Shown here piece by piece: positions 6,383 to 63,700 of a stretch of DNA of 64,000 nt. Under the pieces are notes generated by a model. That model was given only the letters and a program-made list of their open reading frames with translations, searched no databases and was not told the origin of the DNA. Position numbers and translations under genes: made by a program. The DNA lies in assembly GCF_000003815.2 (NCBI RefSeq), contig NC_049983.1, positions 813,137-877,136 on the forward strand, given 5' to 3'. Positions within the stretch are counted from its first letter, which is position 1. The number at the start of each line of letters is the position of its first letter. The DNA is from Branchiostoma floridae. Taxonomy: Eukaryota; Chordata; Leptocardii; Amphioxiformes; Branchiostomatidae.

Positions 6383-7141
6383 GGCCATGTTGATTTGATT
6401 ATATGGATGACATCCTCTGGGAACTCCAAAACTGATGCGAGCGAGCGAATAAAAAAAAAGTTTGGCCAAAAAAAAAGTTTCCTTCAGTATGAAATCTAAG
6501 TGTTCAGGAAGGTTGAACATACGACTTAAAACACATAGTATGGCATACCAACAGTTAGGTGTAGGGACCAGTACATCGTACGGGTGGAAATCGTTTCATT
6601 TTCTTTTTCTTGGGCCGATCCGAAAAAAAGACCTGCAAAAAAATCAGTGGACCGGTTTTCGCCAATTAGAAAATGGACACACTATGTCGACAGGCATTTG
6701 GGGTCTTACCGGGCCAAGAAGACAGCAAGAGCGAAGTTGAGTAGAGTTAGCCTTGATTGCATGAAGATGGGATTTCAAAACGCCAGTGGGAGTGGGATAA
6801 TCCATCAAACAGATTTCTTTGTAGCAATATTGAGTACTGCCGATTCTGAACGGAACCTATACCTGAATTTTCGGTATTGATACCTACCCCTACCAACAAT
6901 AGATTTTTTTTTTCTTTCTGTCCTTTCAAATCTTATTCTTTGACTTTAGATTTATTTTGGCATTCTATGGCATTAGTTATCTATTTTCTGATACTTTTTT
7001 TTCAATCTATGGCATATATGTGCTCATTGTACAGCTACTTTGCACTATTTACTGTGTGGTCGAAAACTTTTTTTTTTTTTGGAAACGGCCGAAAATTGGT
7101 GCGAGCGCGGATGTCATCCATATAATCAAATCAACATGGCC
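6383..7141. mobile_element. PIF/Harbinger-type non-autonomous element, TTA target duplication
   Basis: A 33-bp perfect terminal inverted repeat begins GGCCATGTTGATTTGATTAT at both ends. The flanks are TTA at 6380-6382 and TTA at 7142-7144, the three-base duplication typical of PIF/Harbinger. The 759-bp body has poly-A/T runs and no transposase. Partial relatives of the end (ATATGGATGACATCC) occur at 19712-19745 and, diverged, at about 62216-62290. Confidence 0.85.
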
Positions 7142-54998: not shown

Positions 54999-56225
54999 AT
55001 TGTTGTTGAGTCAAGCATGTCATTATTACATCTAAGGTAAACACATTCTTTTATATATTTACCTATTTGTACACAGTAAAGGTTATTACCTCCAAGAATG
55101 TAGATCGAACGGAAAGTATCAAATTCTTTAGAGCAAGGAGCTTAAATTTTTTAAGCTCCTTGTTTAGAGATAGATGAAGAAATGTAAAAGGTACCAACTC
55201 TACTTGAATGGGATGAACTGAGTCATCTTTGTTTGCGTGGTATTACTGGGATTTGCCCTTTGAACGGAGTTATTATAATTTCAGAAATATTTTCACTTCA
55301 GTTCGTTCCTATGTTTGTACCGACATTAATCAGACGCATTAGTTCTATAGCCCGCCCGATCTTTTACTGGTCGCCTTTTGACAATGTCTTTAAAGCCATA
55401 TATATTGTTTTTTCACCTGGAGGTCATTGCGGGCCATAAAAATCTATTTTTTTAACGATAATACTTTTATTCAATAATAGTTAATACTTTGAATAAAAGT
55501 CCTTATTTATTTTCCATTGTAACCAGGGCAACTCTCTCGGTTGCTAAGGAAGGCACAAGACACACGTATACAGAGAATATACACAATATGTACATGTACA
55601 TAACAATTGTATGTACATAACAAGTCCATCATACACACATACCAATTCTCATATTTGTTATCCGTGCCAAGTCGTAAATTGTAAAGTCTTAAACTGGAAC
55701 TATGCGACTCCGGATGTCTTACTGAGAGATGATTGCGGTGCGTTATATGGCAGTTAGCTGAGGAATGACTTAATGAGTTCACTCTACTATATTGCATTAA
55801 CAAAAATGCTGTTAGATTTCGTCAGATGAAATAAGTTTTTTTTTTGGACATTCCATTTTGCCGAACTAACAGACATAAGAACTCACCGATACCATACCTG
55901 GTATACTTACTGAATAAGTAATTACTCATTAGAAACCGCTTCTGATATGTTTATTACTCAGTAATGATACAGCGTTTGTATGGCAACTTGATATTTTTAT
56001 ACTTATTATAAATTTTAAGACGAATACCCTACAATATTCTAGTAAAGAATTGCTTGTAGGACATTATGTAAAGTTTTTAATAGTGTGCCCGTTTTTTTTA
56101 CTACAGCTGTTTGTATTATGTGAATGTCGACGCAATTCAGCTATCAGCTGCTATGTCGTACATGTTGCAATAAAACTTGTCAAACTTGTCAAACTTTTCT
56201 CTATCCATACTCCCCTCTCACAGAA

Positions 56226-57836
56226 ATGGAAGATTCCAGTCTTGAACGTTTCTGTAAAGAAAAGTGTGCAGCAGGAGATCCTGGAAAGGAGAGTGACAGC
56301 AGGGAGACCCAGACAACAGACATGGGTCTGCAGCAGGAAACGTGTAATGTGAACTTTCCCCAACCTAAAAAAGAATCAACCTCACAGGTACAAAAGAGCA
56401 GAGGTGATGTAAGAAGTACCATAGTCCTTGTACCTTGGTCCTTTATCCCAGTCCAGAGTACGATAATCCCGGCGGTCCAGGCTGTGGGAAGTCATGTGAT
56501 GAAAAACACTGGTGAGAAGCCTTATACGTGTGGGGAAGATGGCTACAGAACTGCCCCAAACGACCAGTTAGCTAAACAGACGAGAACACTCACAGAAGAA
56601 AAACCTTACAAATGTGACCATTGTGATTATTCTGCTGCAGTAAAGTACGCTTTGGTCCAACATCTAAGAAAGCACACTGGTGAGAAACCCTACANNNNNN
56701 NNNNNNNNNNNNNNNNNNNNNNNNNNNNNNNNNNNNNNNNNNNNNNNNNNNNNNNNNNNNNNNNNNNNNNNNNNNNNNNNNNNNNNNNNNNNNNNNNNNN
56801 NNNNNNNNNNNNNNNNNNNNNNNNNNNNNNNNNNNNNNNNNNNNNNNNNNNNNNNNNNNNNNNNNNNNNNNNNNNNNNNNNNNNNNNNNNNNNNNNNNNN
56901 NNNNNNNNNNNNNNNNNNNNNNNNNNNNNNNNNNNNNNNNNNNNNNNNNNNNNNNNNNNNNNNNNNNNNNNNNNNNNNNNNNNNNNNNNNNNNNNNNNNN
57001 NNNNNNNNNNNNNNNNNNNNNNNNNNNNNNNNNNNNNNNNNNNNNNNNNNNNNNNNNNNNNNNNNNNNNNNNNNNNNNNNNNNNNNNNNNNNNNNNNNNN
57101 NNNNNNNNNNNNNNNNNNNNNNNNNNNNNNNNNNNNNNNNNNNNNNNNNNNNNNNNNNNNNNNNNNNNNNNNNNNNNNNNNNNNNNNNNNNNNNNNNNNN
57201 NNNNNNNNNNNNNNNNNNNNNNNNNNNNNNNNNNNNNNNNNNNNNNNNNNTGCAGCAGAAAAATCCACTTTGGATCAACACCTCACTATACACACCGGTG
57301 AGAAACCCTACATGTGTGACAAATGTGGGTACAGGACAGCTAAAAAGTCTTATTTCACCTTTCATATGAAAACCCATACAGGGGTGAAATTGTACAACTG
57401 TGATCTGTGTGACTATTCGACAGCACGGAAATTTCATCTAGACCAACATCTAGCTAGACACACTGGTGAGAAACCCTTCATGTGTGCGGAGTGCGGATTC
57501 AGGACAGCTTTAAAGGCTAACTTATCCCGACATATGAGAACCCACACAGGAGAAAAACCTTACAAATGTGACCAGTGTGACTATTCTGCTGCGCAGAAAG
57601 GTGAATTAGATTACCATGTAGCAAACCACACCGGTGAGAAACCCTACATGTGTGGAGAATGTGATTTCAGAACAAGTCGAAGGCCTTGTTTAACCCGACA
57701 TATGAGAACCCACACAGGAGAAAAACCCTACAAGTGTGACCAGTGCGACTATTCTGCAGCACAGAAAGGCACATTAGACAAACATCGTAAACAACACGCT
57801 TTCAAGAAACCCATGAATATATGTGAGAAGCGTTGA
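56226..57836 (+). CDS. C2H2 zinc-finger protein
   Basis: The ATG at 56226 is chosen because a pyrimidine tract and CTCACAG acceptor lie just before it; the frame is open further up to 56124. A ~95-residue acidic/polar leader (MEDSSLERFCKEKCAAGD) precedes the array. The first finger (YTCGEDGYRTAPND) has lost its second Cys and both His, so it is degenerate. One intact finger (YKCDHCDYSAAVKYALVQHLRKH) precedes the 556-N gap. After it come one partial and six complete fingers with TGEKPY linkers, then FKKPMNICEKR and a stop. Fingers alternate between a YMC..CGFRTA type and a YKCDQCDYSAAQKG type. Likely a nuclear DNA-binding protein; targets unknown. No KRAB or BTB domain is seen. Confidence 0.9.
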   Translation: MEDSSLERFCKEKCAAGDPGKESDSRETQTTDMGLQQETCNVNFPQPKKESTSQVQKSRGDVRSTIVLVPWSFIPVQSTIIPAVQAVGSHVMKNTGEKPYTCGEDGYRTAPNDQLAKQTRTLTEEKPYKCDHCDYSAAVKYALVQHLRKHTGEKPYXXXXXXXXXXXXXXXXXXXXXXXXXXXXXXXXXXXXXXXXXXXXXXXXXXXXXXXXXXXXXXXXXXXXXXXXXXXXXXXXXXXXXXXXXXXXXXXXXXXXXXXXXXXXXXXXXXXXXXXXXXXXXXXXXXXXXXXXXXXXXXXXXXXXXXXXXXXXXXXXXXXXXXXXXXXXXXXXXXXXXXXXXXAAEKSTLDQHLTIHTGEKPYMCDKCGYRTAKKSYFTFHMKTHTGVKLYNCDLCDYSTARKFHLDQHLARHTGEKPFMCAECGFRTALKANLSRHMRTHTGEKPYKCDQCDYSAAQKGELDYHVANHTGEKPYMCGECDFRTSRRPCLTRHMRTHTGEKPYKCDQCDYSAAQKGTLDKHRKQHAFKKPMNICEKR

Positions 57837-58424: not shown

Positions 58425-59119
58425 CGTCGTTGTTGTGGCTTGTACCGGTGTAGCAGCGGCCGGTTGTCCCGATGGATGCGTTGGGTCGGGGTGTCGGGAT
58501 GCGTTGTCGGCAGGTCGCCTCGATAAAGCCGGCGGGTCGGGGTGTTGAGGTGCCGCGGCGACGGCGGCGGGGGCGGTAGAAGGCCTTGAGTGTCTATCGA
58601 AAAATGTATATAAACAACATAGGGGATAAACAACACGGAATATTTTCATCTACTGACTATTACAGAAAACTCGGGGACGTCAAATCATCTTTTTGGTAAG
58701 AAATAACACACCGATCTGTTACTTACGTCTGGGAACGTTGTTCCTCTGGTGGGGGCGCAGAGTCGCGGGATGCCCCGGCCTGTACCGGTGTTAGCCACGG
58801 CCCCTCGCTCTTATCTTGACTCCACCGCACTTCATCTTCGCTCTGCTCGACTGTTTCACCCTCTTGTACATCCACATCCCAGTCTATGTTTTCCAAGTCT
58901 AGCTCTCGCAAGACTTCCCGACGAGTTCTAGTACATGAAAACATTAAAATATTGGTACACAAACGAGTAACACACGTCATCAATCGTTAAAAAGAAAAGA
59001 CGGCTACATAAGAAACTCAACAGAAAGTTTAACACTAAGAAATAATTTAAAACTTACCTCTTGGCGTCTTGGTGACCTCCGTCGTTTGGGGGTCGCCGTT
59101 TTCTTCCGCCAGGCCACAT
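58425..59119 (-). CDS. Unrecognised acidic/proline-rich protein, 5' part
   Basis: Minus-strand exons 59058-59119, 58727-58927 and 58593 down to the gap edge at 58425 join in frame with gtaagt donors and CTAG and ATAG acceptors. The start is MWPGGRKRRPPNDGGHQDAK. Exon 2 is acidic (LRELDLENIDWDVDVQEGE, VEQSEDEVRWSQDKSEG). Exon 3 is Pro/Ala/Thr-rich (HPDPPALSRRPADNASRHPD). Exons 2 and 3 share a TPVQA motif and the same underlying DNA word, ACACCGGTACARGCC. The rest is beyond the 100-N gap. A basic start followed by an acidic region resembles the N-termini of some transposase-derived proteins, but no domain is visible and no function is assigned. CCAAT words lie near 59213 and 59253. Confidence 0.6.
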
Positions 59120-60298
59120 GTCATAACGCGTCGGGGAACAGGTTTGAATCTACCCGCTAACACGGCGTTTTTATGTCCTTGGGCAAGGTCAGCGCGCGCA
59201 AGTGATTCCTTGACCAATCATATTCGAGATACAGACAACCCATTGTCTACACAGCCAATCACAGCAAAGGACTGATCCCAGACAATTTTCTTGTCACTTG
59301 TTGAGTGAGGCGCTAGTTACACAAACTCTGATTAACGCTACATAAACTTAACTCTGATAATCTTAGTCCATATCACAAACAGTTTTGTTACTAGATTATG
59401 TCCCGACAGGTCATGATTACTGCGTGTTTAATTTATCGCAGAGCTGCTTGCTTATGTAATACTTTTCCATTCATTACTGTTTGAGGATTAACACCCAGCC
59501 TTGGACGACTTTTTTACATACAACTGGATTAGCTCTAATAAATCTTTTAATTTTCACCTTTTAGAGATAGCTTAGCTTAGTCTTATAGTCTTAGCAATAT
59601 TTACATGTTTATCAACGTTATTATCGTACCTGTTACTTCTCATTCACAGACAATTTCTTTAATGCCGTCAGCTCTGAATGAAATACAAAAGTAGCACGGT
59701 TTTAGGACGGAGTTAAAAAGATGATCTAGAAAATGCCAAACATTACGGTTTGATGCGTCCTGCTGACGGTTGTCGCTCTTTTTTCGTCTCCTTATTCTTC
59801 TTGGGTTTTGAAGAGATGTCTTGCGTCGATATTCCGGGTAAAAGATTTGTTTTTACATCCCAAATGTTCCGACGTTCCGCGATCATTGATTCCGACTGTA
59901 TTGGTGACTGCATTTCCCGTGTGCGTTCGTACGCGCGCGCGTGTGTTCACTGTTTCAAACAAGTACGCTGAGTAAGGAAACTTCTAGCTACAACATTGTC
60001 TGTGTCGGGAATAGCGTGATAGGTACAATCAAGACATCGGCGGTGTGTTTGTGTATATAATCATACGAGTGTCAGCCCTAATCAATTTTCTGCCTAATTG
60101 GGATGTAATTCCACTGCCCGTAAATGATCAGACCTATTACGCTGTGTTTGCTTTGTCATATACTAGACAAAGGGGTTTTGTCAAGCTACCGCCACGCATT
60201 GTCTTTTCTTCATGGAAAAGACAACATTTGTAATTAACGCTCGTCTGATCTGTAATTAGACGTCTGTAACCGGCTGTCTGTCGGGTTATCCTCCCAGC

Positions 60299-60310
60299 TT
60301 AATAAAAAGC
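60299..60310 (+). promoter_or_regulatory. TATA-like box of the 110-residue gene
   Basis: TTAATAAAAAGC lies about 50-60 bases before the ATG at 60360, leaving room for a ~30-base 5' UTR, as in compact histone genes. Confidence 0.45.
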
Positions 60311-60359
60311 GCAAACATTTTCTTGAATCATTCATCTTTGAACTACTGCTACCCGAGAG

Positions 60360-60692
60360 ATGGCCGCCGCTTACGATAAAGACATCCCCGATGCCCTGAC
60401 CCTAGCGACTCTTGCGATGTACATCGACCACAACTGGCACGGTACAGTACTGATAGAGAACTCTAAGCCGTTAATAAGTGTTCTGACAACTCTGAAGTTG
60501 AAGCTAGAAGCCCTGGGATCCCGGAGCGGTGTCGACTTCAGATTTAAAATGTTCGATGTGCCGATGCTTGGGACGGACTACTTACCGGTGTACGTACAAA
60601 ACAGCGAGGACGTCAGGAACATTCTGGACATTCTCAACAGAGATTTTCCTGAGGTGAAAACCATGGTCCTAGCGCCGGGAAAACACTACTAA
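60360..60692 (+). CDS. Intronless gene for an unknown 110-residue protein with histone-type 3' end
   Basis: The ATG at 60360 has good context (GAGAGATGGCC), and the frame is closed by TAA at 60690-60692. The protein starts MAAAYDKDIPDALTLATLAMY and ends TMVLAPGKHY. It is slightly acidic, with mixed helix/strand-like text (LISVLTTLKLKLEALG, DVRNILDILNRDFPEV) and no signal peptide or membrane segment. It is not a histone and I do not recognise a family. It is followed 30 bases after the stop by two histone-type stem-loops. A TATA-like box and a short 5' UTR complete a compact single-exon unit. This suggests an mRNA processed like replication-dependent histone mRNA, hence S-phase or egg/embryo expression; that is inference. 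Confidence 0.7.
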   Translation: MAAAYDKDIPDALTLATLAMYIDHNWHGTVLIENSKPLISVLTTLKLKLEALGSRSGVDFRFKMFDVPMLGTDYLPVYVQNSEDVRNILDILNRDFPEVKTMVLAPGKHY

Positions 60693-60722
60693 GTCAACCC
60701 ATCACGCCGTACGTTAAACCCC

Positions 60723-60743
60723 GGCCCTTCTCAGGGCCACCCA
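60723..60743 (+). terminator. Histone-type 3' stem-loop 1
   Basis: GGCCCT-TCTC-AGGGCC makes a 6-bp stem with a 4-base loop, preceded by AAACCCC and followed by ACCCA. This is the arrangement recognised by stem-loop binding protein in histone mRNA. The loop TCTC is one step from the usual TTTC. Confidence 0.8.
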
Positions 60744-60759
60744 AATATCACCAAACCCC

Positions 60760-60780
60760 GGCCCTTTTCAGGGCCACCCA
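60760..60780 (+). terminator. Histone-type 3' stem-loop 2 with purine-rich downstream element
   Basis: GGCCCT-TTTC-AGGGCC has the canonical TTTC loop, followed by ACCCA. A purine-rich CAGAAAAGTG lies about 8 bases further, where U7 snRNA would pair in a histone gene. The two stem-loops sit in near-identical 37-bp direct repeats. Confidence 0.82.
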
Positions 60781-63700
60781 AATGTTTCAGAAAAGTGCTT
60801 ATCGTTTCACAAAACACATACACATACACACAATTAAATACCTACTAATGAGGATTTACAATTCTTTAATGAATAGTTCTTGTTATCAACACCGATCTAA
60901 TCTTGTTCTTATCCTGTATTAAACTGTTTTGTTACATAATTATATCAATATCACCTCCACCTTGGATCTGAGATGTAAAAATGATATAGTGTAATTAGTA
61001 TTAATCCGATTTACCATTAATCCTACGATAAGCCGATAAGAAGCTAATTATGTCAACACTCCTTAGGGCAGCGACTCCTAGCGGCGGAGTCAGAACTGCA
61101 GTTGGTCTGAACAGACCTGTATTCTACTCACCATGAAAGAGTGATGAACAGATGAATTGTTCAAAATGTAAATGAAGTAACTTGAGAACAGTCACCACAA
61201 GCAATTCTTAACTCCAACACCACATCATTAATCATAAGACGAAACAAAATATTAAGCGAATACATGACTAGAAATGCAGTAAGTTATGTTTAACAAGAAA
61301 CTGACATTAGGCTCACTTATATAATGTAGCTGCTGTATTAAAGTATGGGAGACCTTTTGAAGGTAAAGTTTTTTTCAACACCACAGAAATTTTGTCACTT
61401 ATCTTCAAGGGAAAGTTCCCAATACGTTCACAGGTAGAAAACTTTGAATATGTCAAAAGAACTTCATTTCCTTAAAATGACTTACCAATAGTGAAGATAA
61501 TCACGTGTTACCATTGTTATCCACCAAAGAAGAAACATGATCATGTCAAATGTGACATCGCAAACGGATAATTTTTCTGCTCCCTCGTGTTGGACTGTTT
61601 CTGTTTCAAGACCTTTATAGACGTTTATAGCTAGCTGTGTTCTTCAAATTCCCGNNNNNNNNNNNNNNNNNNNNNNNNNNNNNNNNNNNNNNNNNNNNNN
61701 NNNNNNNNNNNNNNNNNNNNNNNNNNNNNNNNNNNNNNNNNNNNNNNNNNNNNNTGTGTTTAACTAGTTCACTACTGTTACAACCGTGATAGAAACGCCT
61801 TCCCTATAGCTACTGAAGGCTGGGGTTAATTATAATGGCATTACTAAAGGCTGTAAAGGCTGGCGGTGGCGAACACCAGGCTAGTAAACAGCCACCAAGT
61901 CTTGGCAATCATCGCTACCTTCGTATTGGAGTGCACACTACTCAACAGTTATAACGGAGATGTACTTTGAAACGCGCACAGTTGTAGGACCAGTGTTCAA
62001 CCTCAGATCTCAGACTCCTGACCACGTGCGGTCAAGGTCGTAGGACAAAAAGGCGAACTGATTTGCACGCTGACCCAGATACATGTACAGTGCTAGAAAC
62101 TGAAGGCCAGGGCAGTCGTCTGGGGCAGTAGCTTGCTGACCCAGAAAAACGTATACCTTCCTACTGAAGGCCGGGGTTTATAGCCGAAATGGCTTTAAAA
62201 AAATGCTGATTTGCTTACATGGATGACACCCCATGGGAACTCAAAAACTGGTGCGAATTTAGAAAGAAAAGAGTCTGGCTAAAAAAAAAGAGTTGCCTAC
62301 GCCATGACATTTATTGTGACCAGGAAGGATGAATAGCCTGACAAAAATCGCGCTCCTAGCGAGAGATTGTGTAAACACAGGCTAGAAGGGTACACAAATG
62401 GCTAAATACACTGAATACGGCCATTAAGGACCATATATAGAGGACTTTACGGACCAACACAAAACTAGTAAAAGTTTAAATACATCGTACTTCTTTCAAT
62501 TTCGTTCTAAATAAACAAAAAAATGTAATAACGGACAAAATAAAGAGGTACTTCACTAGTTTAATAAGTGCTTGTTCTGTAAACTATTTTTTTATGATAA
62601 ACTTTTTTATTCTATTTTCACCGATGAAAGAGACAAGATATCCAAATCGTACAGGCACAGGTACAGGTACGTAGGTTTAAGAACAGGTCCAGACCTTAAC
62701 CTGTGCCTAAACAAGTTTGGTCAATGGTCTGTAAGTTATAAATGTAGCAAACTGTCTTTTTAGTGCAAAATTGCCATCTTTGTATGAGGATTTAGATATT
62801 TGAACCTCATAAAACGAATTTTCAACTGCAATATTATTACATTTCTCATCCTTGGAATTTACTTGTATTTAGTCTCAAAACGTGGTCTTCAATAGAGATT
62901 TAGTTAGTTTAGGTACAGCTAGGTACACAGATGACGGTCCGGACCTGTACCTAAACGATTTTAAAAGGTACGGTACAGGTAACGTTACGGATATTTAGGT
63001 ACACAGGATCCATCCAAAGCTTCTCGAGCTACGAAGGTCACAGACAAACGACAAATCAAACATAACCTCAGTCTTGGCGAAGCGGCCTTCTATGGTACTT
63101 TATCGGAATCCCCGGATTTTGAGATATCGTTAGTTGCGAAGAGCTAGTGGGTTCACAACGCCTCCTAGCGGAATCTGGACAAATGACATGGCCATTCAGC
63201 CCTCCCTTTTACTAAACATCATTTGTTACCGCAGATTCATCACAATCAAACGTGTCAAAATACTCTTCAAAAGCTACCATCTTCGTTTGAAATTGTATCA
63301 AAATTATATATATAACATAATACAAATAATTACAACAGATATGCATGAATTAAAAAGAAAATTCTTTCGTATTATGGTGAATAATTTTATTGATTCGTTG
63401 TCCATAATTGGCAGGCTATTTGTTTCTGCTCATTCGATAACTCAAATCGGTACACAGAGACATGGAGAAAATTTCTCCTACTTTATAATATTTATTTATA
63501 ACGTAAGCGCATATTAATGTAAGCAAATAAGGCCAAGTTGTACTACATATGGAAGAGGAATTTGAGATGGAACAACAAGACAATGAAGACATCGTTCAAA
63601 ATCAGGAGACAGGCAAGTTTCACCCGGAAAGTTTTAGGGGAGGGGGGCATAGAAATATTGACTTGCAACTCTGAAGAATTGACCGAAGCTCTAAACTATT

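Follow-up and report, generated by a model that had tools for sequence, protein, structure and literature searches.

Part of a small family of non-histone genes in the lancelet Branchiostoma floridae probably uses the replication-dependent histone 3′-end pathway, a reading to which we give a probability of about 0.7. In animals, the hairpin-plus-downstream signal is generally regarded as reserved for histone mRNAs. The gene that led to this reading lies in a 64-kb stretch of DNA, analysed as a whole and called the window below, and its parts are as follows.

60023..60258, forward strand: region 5′ of the gene, conserved with the C2 paralogue by alignment; probable promoter/enhancer
60299..60336, forward strand: weak candidate, picked by eye, for a histone-like core promoter, TTAATAAAAAG then ATCATTCATC
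60360-60692, forward strand: non-histone coding frame in a single exon, ATG at 60360 to TAA at 60692, 110 amino acids plus stop
60723..60743, forward strand: histone-type stem-loop 1 with ACCCA, GGCCCTTCTCAGGGCC-ACCCA, without a downstream element of its own
60760..60780, forward strand: histone-type stem-loop 2 with ACCCA, GGCCCTTTTCAGGGCC-ACCCA
60788..60806, forward strand: U7-type histone downstream element CAGAAAAGTGCTTATCGTT, inside the match to covariance model R1

ORF analysis shows a reading frame open in one exon, and 30 nt past its stop codon begins stem-loop 1, directly trailed by stem-loop 2, whose start lies 37 nt from that of the first; CAGAAAAG starts at 60788, 7 nt past the second ACCCA. 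The two 21-mers agree with the histone consensus at every position, and no third match appears in the window even when 3 mismatches are allowed, a limit at which shuffled windows hold a mean of 0.17 matches and reach two or more in 2 of 100 shuffles. RF00032 (Histone3), the sole Rfam family at its gathering threshold within the window, matches 60755-60800 with 36.2 bits against a cut-off of 34 and covers stem-loop 2. Each hairpin has a 6-bp stem and a 4-nt loop, and shuffled versions folded equally well in 4/200 and 3/200 cases. The whole genome holds 126 exact matches to the consensus, 71 on the forward and 55 on the reverse strand, and none to the mirrored control pattern. By RF00032 and the consensus, therefore, the gene has the conserved 3′ stem-loop of the histone class, and by likeness to the histone genes of the same genome it also has a U7-type downstream element at the set spacing. 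The 110-codon single-exon frame and the two hairpins with ACCCA, as given in a preliminary description of this DNA, are thus borne out by coordinates, consensus fit and the Rfam match.

Further weight comes from R1, which was trained only on 20 histone-gene sites of the same genome, all following histone frames (17 labelled H2A, H2B, H3 or H4, and 3 after H1 frames). On 60750-60815 it scores 52.3 bits (E 4.1e-10), and on stem-loop 1 it gives a partial match, of the hairpin part only, at 28.1 bits (E 2.6e-4). Its chance-level matches number three, at E 2.5 to 6.5, with one of them in the window (32259). On three histone loci (L045-L047) it finds 11 matches of 20 to 86 bits, some of them training sites or their copies and so high-scoring by construction, and the family modules fall within this range. 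A chance origin of the window hairpins is ruled out by the consensus counts, the mirror control and the R1 scores.

The protein itself was also described at the outset as not a histone, and Pfam, PDB and tblastn of histones agree. It has no Pfam, PHROGs or PDB match even at E up to 10, and five histones searched against the window by tblastn give none either; by these searches and NCBIfam, the gene does not encode a recognisable histone, unlike the genes of the replication-dependent histone class. The sole NCBIfam match of the protein, SecF at E 0.025, was taken as chance, as were APP1_cat (E 0.0093, confined to one paralogue) and Csn2 (E 0.002, in 1 of 11 family members). Judged by eye, the protein looks like a putative beta-alpha-beta-beta-alpha-beta domain with a shared pattern W-x-G-T-[IV]-L; a PB1-like or other known fold was weighed by eye and set aside, profile searches of Pfam and PDB returning nothing of note. 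A viral or phage origin was likewise rejected, viral contigs and phage records holding no relative of the protein, and a histone pseudogene or histone neighbour within the window is rejected because the tblastn search with five histones finds no similarity there.

In the 5′ flank, 60023-60258 aligns with C2 at 72.7% identity over 245 columns (E 6.6e-28), and 40-nt bins from 60020 to 60259 reach 60-82% between window and C2 against a shuffled mean of 54%. Set beside 60299-60336 and compared by eye, several of the regions upstream of histone genes in this genome show TATAAA and TTCATTCATTC. Two other genes or frames were observed in this part of the window. A C2H2 zinc-finger gene (56124-57836) has six zf-H2C2_2 stretches and is split by an assembly gap. 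A 73-residue frame (CTRTRREVLRELDLE...) at 58726-58944 on the minus strand is 59% similar to one at L037:6457-6690 on the plus strand, so that this CTRTRREVLRELDLE frame adjoins both the window gene and the C11 pseudogene copy, in differing relative positions.

The signal proved real, and the gene that the preliminary description took to be a single one turned out to be a member of a family, part of which keeps the signal. With three family proteins encoded by single exons and the joined C2 protein as queries, the 513-Mb genome (431 contigs) shows at least 19 places at E<=0.001, counted as places and not as exons; the number is a lower bound because the search scores only the best candidates. 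A C14 place at E 0.77 was set aside, and its fetched stretch has no R1 match. Ten places hold a full-length frame from ATG, namely the window, C2, C5:15.3M, C3:11.93M, C11:17.385M, C13:9.019M and four on C196; at the remaining nine the frame is truncated, carries a frameshift, lacks an ATG or is a fragment. The C2 paralogue consists of two exons with a likely GT-AG intron, as deduced from frame and homology. C5:15.3M, C9:974k and C16 are three copies of one family type, of which the C9:974k and C16 frames are cut on the 5′ side to 74 codons each and are mutually identical, an assembly gap lying upstream of the C16 copy. A tree of 13 rows, 12 of them different, which leaves out the C11:17.03M pseudogene and the fragments, places the window, C2 and the C5/C9/C16 copies on one branch and C3, C11:17.385M, C13 and C196 on the other, with strong support for one of its nine inner branches, that joining window and C2.

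Could the locus instead yield a non-coding, histone-type RNA whose frame is never translated? The window and family proteins match no known protein domain, and the same 3′ end occurs on a repeat without a recognised gene, both of which would suit such an RNA. The frame is nevertheless retained in paralogues that are 35-45% identical to it, the alignments scoring 178 and 123 where shuffles reach at most 51 and 45, and codon differences are concentrated at third positions (35/23/53 for window and C2, p 0.002; 41/28/57 for window and C5, p 0.007), which makes an untranslated frame highly improbable. The dN/dS ratio is about 0.26 for window and C2, with dS near saturation, and 0.13-0.36 across six diverged pairs, dS being near saturation in four of them and in the window comparisons. 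The close pair C5/C9:974k gives 2.15 on 9 changes (1 synonymous, 8 other), C9:974k being truncated. The excess at third positions together with the low dN/dS supports the frames as coding, and on these comparisons the window and paralogue frames look to be under constraint. The window gene is best regarded, as far as its sequence goes, as a probable member of a small, fast-diverging protein-coding family that is sequence-unrelated to histones.

In 18 sources totalling 108 kb, which take in all 19 family places, R1 finds intact modules at six: the window with two hairpins, C2 with five, and C5:15.3M, C9:974k, C16 and C3 with one each. The C2 modules score 69, 66, 64, 44 and 38 bits, the C3 module 60.5, and those of C5, C9:974k and C16 46.4 each; ten of the eleven modules at the intact places have E values of 4e-14 to 9e-7, the eleventh being hairpin 1 of the window. 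Weak matches of 21.8-26.2 bits (E 7e-4 to 8e-3) at C9:961k, C9:973k, C11:17.385M, C11:17.03M and a sixth C2 unit can be read as decayed remnants. The genome's own homologues thus divide into 6 places with an intact module, 4 with weak remnants and 9 with none, and because of these nine the signal is not family-wide; in the small fetched pieces, absence spans about 390 to 670 bases past the frame. Among the ten full-length members the module is intact in four and decayed in C11:17.385M, and R1 finds none within the stretches fetched for C13 and the four C196 copies. That the module is a true histone-type 3′ end, as first proposed, is upheld by its recurrence on paralogues with full-length frames. 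At C2 (L036:4947-5510), one frame is followed by five tandem hairpin-plus-downstream-element modules, every hairpin carrying its own element, and by a degenerate sixth near 6621. Near the C5 copy, a hairpin on the opposite strand (GGCCCTTCTTAGGGCC-ACCCA, L038:4291-4311, minus), 20 nt past a 77-codon open frame and without a downstream element, scores 19.3 bits (E 0.03).

The signal also occurs outside the family. Scoring of the best candidates with the Rfam histone model gives at least 75 places genome-wide, 74 of these over the cut-off, and seven places outside dense histone arrays were examined for their neighbours: the window gene, C9:16.17M, C19:3.55M, C3:4.42M, C3:4.79M, C3:18.42M and C17:164k. 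The hairpins at C9:16.17M and C19:3.55M follow pieces of a second non-histone family, whose C9 and C19 members share 55% and 60% identity in stretches of 58 and 43 residues; it does not resemble the first family in sequence (best E 1.3), and its best Pfam hint is P2RX7_C at E 0.13. Their R1 scores, for hairpin plus downstream element, are 41.3 bits at L064 and 57.6 bits at L044. L064 (C19:3548650-3549750, minus) encodes 217 residues from an internal ATG, with a CHYCFCRPC motif, and L044 (C9:16162000-16171900, minus) holds pieces similar to this C19 protein. C3:4.42M and 4.79M are two copies of a dispersed CAGCACTGG-repeat element without a recognised gene, for which a genome search gives 39 matching rows, short fragments included; this element was seen at L040, L041, L042, L043 and L048 (near 4.9 kb in each) and at L060 and L061. 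The C3:18.42M hairpin is an orphan, and C17:164k is likely a histone relic, judging from its flank.

Given that the dispersed repeat ends in the module in five fetched copies, the module does travel, and a mobile or recombined histone 3′ end might have landed near the family genes as a passenger without function for them, the more so as 9 of the 19 places miss it and truncation or decay affects several family copies. Against this stand the retention of the module in each of the two branches of the tree (C3 in one; the window, C2 and C5 in the other) and its position 10 to 36 nt past the stop in the four full-length genes that bear it. The module is also more strongly conserved between window and C2 than the coding region is, with 91% identity over 44 nt (60750-60793) that comprise the hairpin, ACCCA and the start of the downstream element, and no alignment was found between the rest of the window 3′ UTR and the C2 3′ region. 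Moreover, the C2 stem carries a paired change, the outer G-C being replaced by A-U in four of five hairpins; hairpin 4 has an outer A-G mismatch and hairpin 2 an inner C-A mismatch. Across 11 distinct hairpins, two of them from the C11 pseudogene, 93.9% of cells hold standard pairs against 3-62% with the partners slid, and shuffles reach the covariation score in 2/500 cases, the percentage paired in 21/500 and the number of co-varying pairs in 340/500; the covariation is modest because a single pair varies on both sides. Taken together, a functionless passenger seems improbable, and use of the histone pathway by some members of the family is preferred.

As to where the module came from, the suggestion that it was captured from a histone cluster is possible, since one locus lies next to such genes: the C3 paralogue begins some 0.7 kb from a stretch that resembles H3 (37-61% identity), the adjoining 9.9 kb also show similarity to H2A and H2B, and this paralogue is the sole intact-module member of its tree branch. 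The window and the other fetched family loci show no histone similarity; of 18 family-search loci checked together, with flanks that were short or 9.9 kb long, 17 have none, and neither does the C3 piece itself. Either capture of a histone 3′ end at C3 or an older common origin followed by repeated losses would fit, and the tree is too weak to choose between them.

In animals, SLBP sits on the hairpin and the U7 snRNP on the downstream element, with cleavage between the two. Family mRNAs would most likely mature by the same putative route, and for processing, the absence of poly(A) and timing we infer the following. SLBP would bind the hairpin of the window pre-mRNA, base pairing would bring the U7 snRNP to the downstream element past stem-loop 2, and a cut just past ACCCA would leave a tailless mRNA ending in two hairpins; because a downstream element exists for hairpin 2 only, the cut would likely fall just after 60780. 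The element at each C2 hairpin makes nested 3′ ends possible. By analogy with histone messages, translation would proceed via SLBP and decay would set in once replication ends, so that the protein may occur in S phase only, or only in eggs and early embryos.

C1 carries two exons of an SLBP RNA-binding domain. The Rfam model of the U7 snRNA finds nothing in this genome nor in its control genomes. A first U7 pattern, with a spacing that we take to be longer than that of vertebrate U7, occurs at 11 places against 15 in the mirror control, and no U7 was identified at the 10 distinct places examined, one of which, on C6, has a 9-bp stem past an Sm-like site. A second pattern with short spacing occurs at 8 places against 4 in the control, and none of the 8 combines a strong 3′ hairpin with good pairing to the downstream element. 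These searches identified no U7 snRNA, which does not mean that the genome lacks one. About 2.3 kb from a histone array, L083 (C13:10812100-10812340, minus) holds a U7-like Sm string, TCTTTTGTCTTAAATTTGTCTAG, for which no claim is made given its weak 3′ stem and poor pairing to the downstream element.

Among the points that count against the pathway reading are the full-length members without an intact module, the apparent C2 intron, which sets that gene apart from typical histone genes, and possible poly(A) signals. ATTAAA lies at +141 and +226 past the stop of the window gene and AATAAA at +132 in the C5 copy, and h2afx is, in the part of PMC3188798 consulted, an example of a bimorphic histone transcript. 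The family messages could likewise use the hairpin part-time, in S phase or in oocytes for instance, and otherwise a downstream poly(A) signal, as H2AX does. C2, however, with its five tandem modules, has no AATAAA or ATTAAA within 1 kb past the stop, and we consider the bimorphic arrangement unlikely, if the most credible of the alternatives to regular use of the histone pathway.

If regular use of the pathway is correct, a chordate family breaks the rule that such ends are histone-only, and some of its messages may be made tailless and timed with DNA replication. Such genes would be missed by poly(A)-selected RNA-seq, and they would offer a natural experiment on the contribution of the hairpin by itself to S-phase timing and tailless translation. 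A broader proposal, which we hold tentatively and at somewhat less than even odds, is that lancelets have recruited the histone 3′-end pathway as a general switch, by which a dispersed non-coding element and two or more non-histone protein families, seemingly unrelated to each other, would make tailless, replication-timed RNAs; tandem hairpins might then serve as multiple SLBP sites or as redundant cleavage sites.

The consulted portions of PMC6303110 and PMC2642717 state that, among the mRNAs of animals or cells, those of histones alone are known to end in the hairpin or to lack polyadenylation. For human cells, PMC3188798 reports poly(A)-minus mRNAs of genes other than histones, untied, in the part consulted, to the histone hairpin, and PMC1924863, as far as its consulted part goes, treats the histone mRNAs of C. 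elegans. Among the titles and abstract openings found, none concerns lancelet non-histone genes with a histone 3′ signal.

Compared with the histone genes of the same genome, the family shares the six-bp stem, the four-nt loop, an ACCCA-type 3′ flank, ACCCC before the hairpin and a purine-rich downstream element at similar spacing; it differs in its non-histone protein, in its tandem hairpins (two in the window, five at C2) and in the apparent intron and A-U outer pair of the C2 paralogue. H2AX-type genes resemble it in combining a hairpin module with a possible downstream poly(A) signal, whereas H2AX is a histone, as the consulted portions of PMC3188798 and PMC2642717 present it. The dispersed repeat (L040-L043, L048) likewise ends in a hairpin and downstream element, but shows no family frame and has different flanks.
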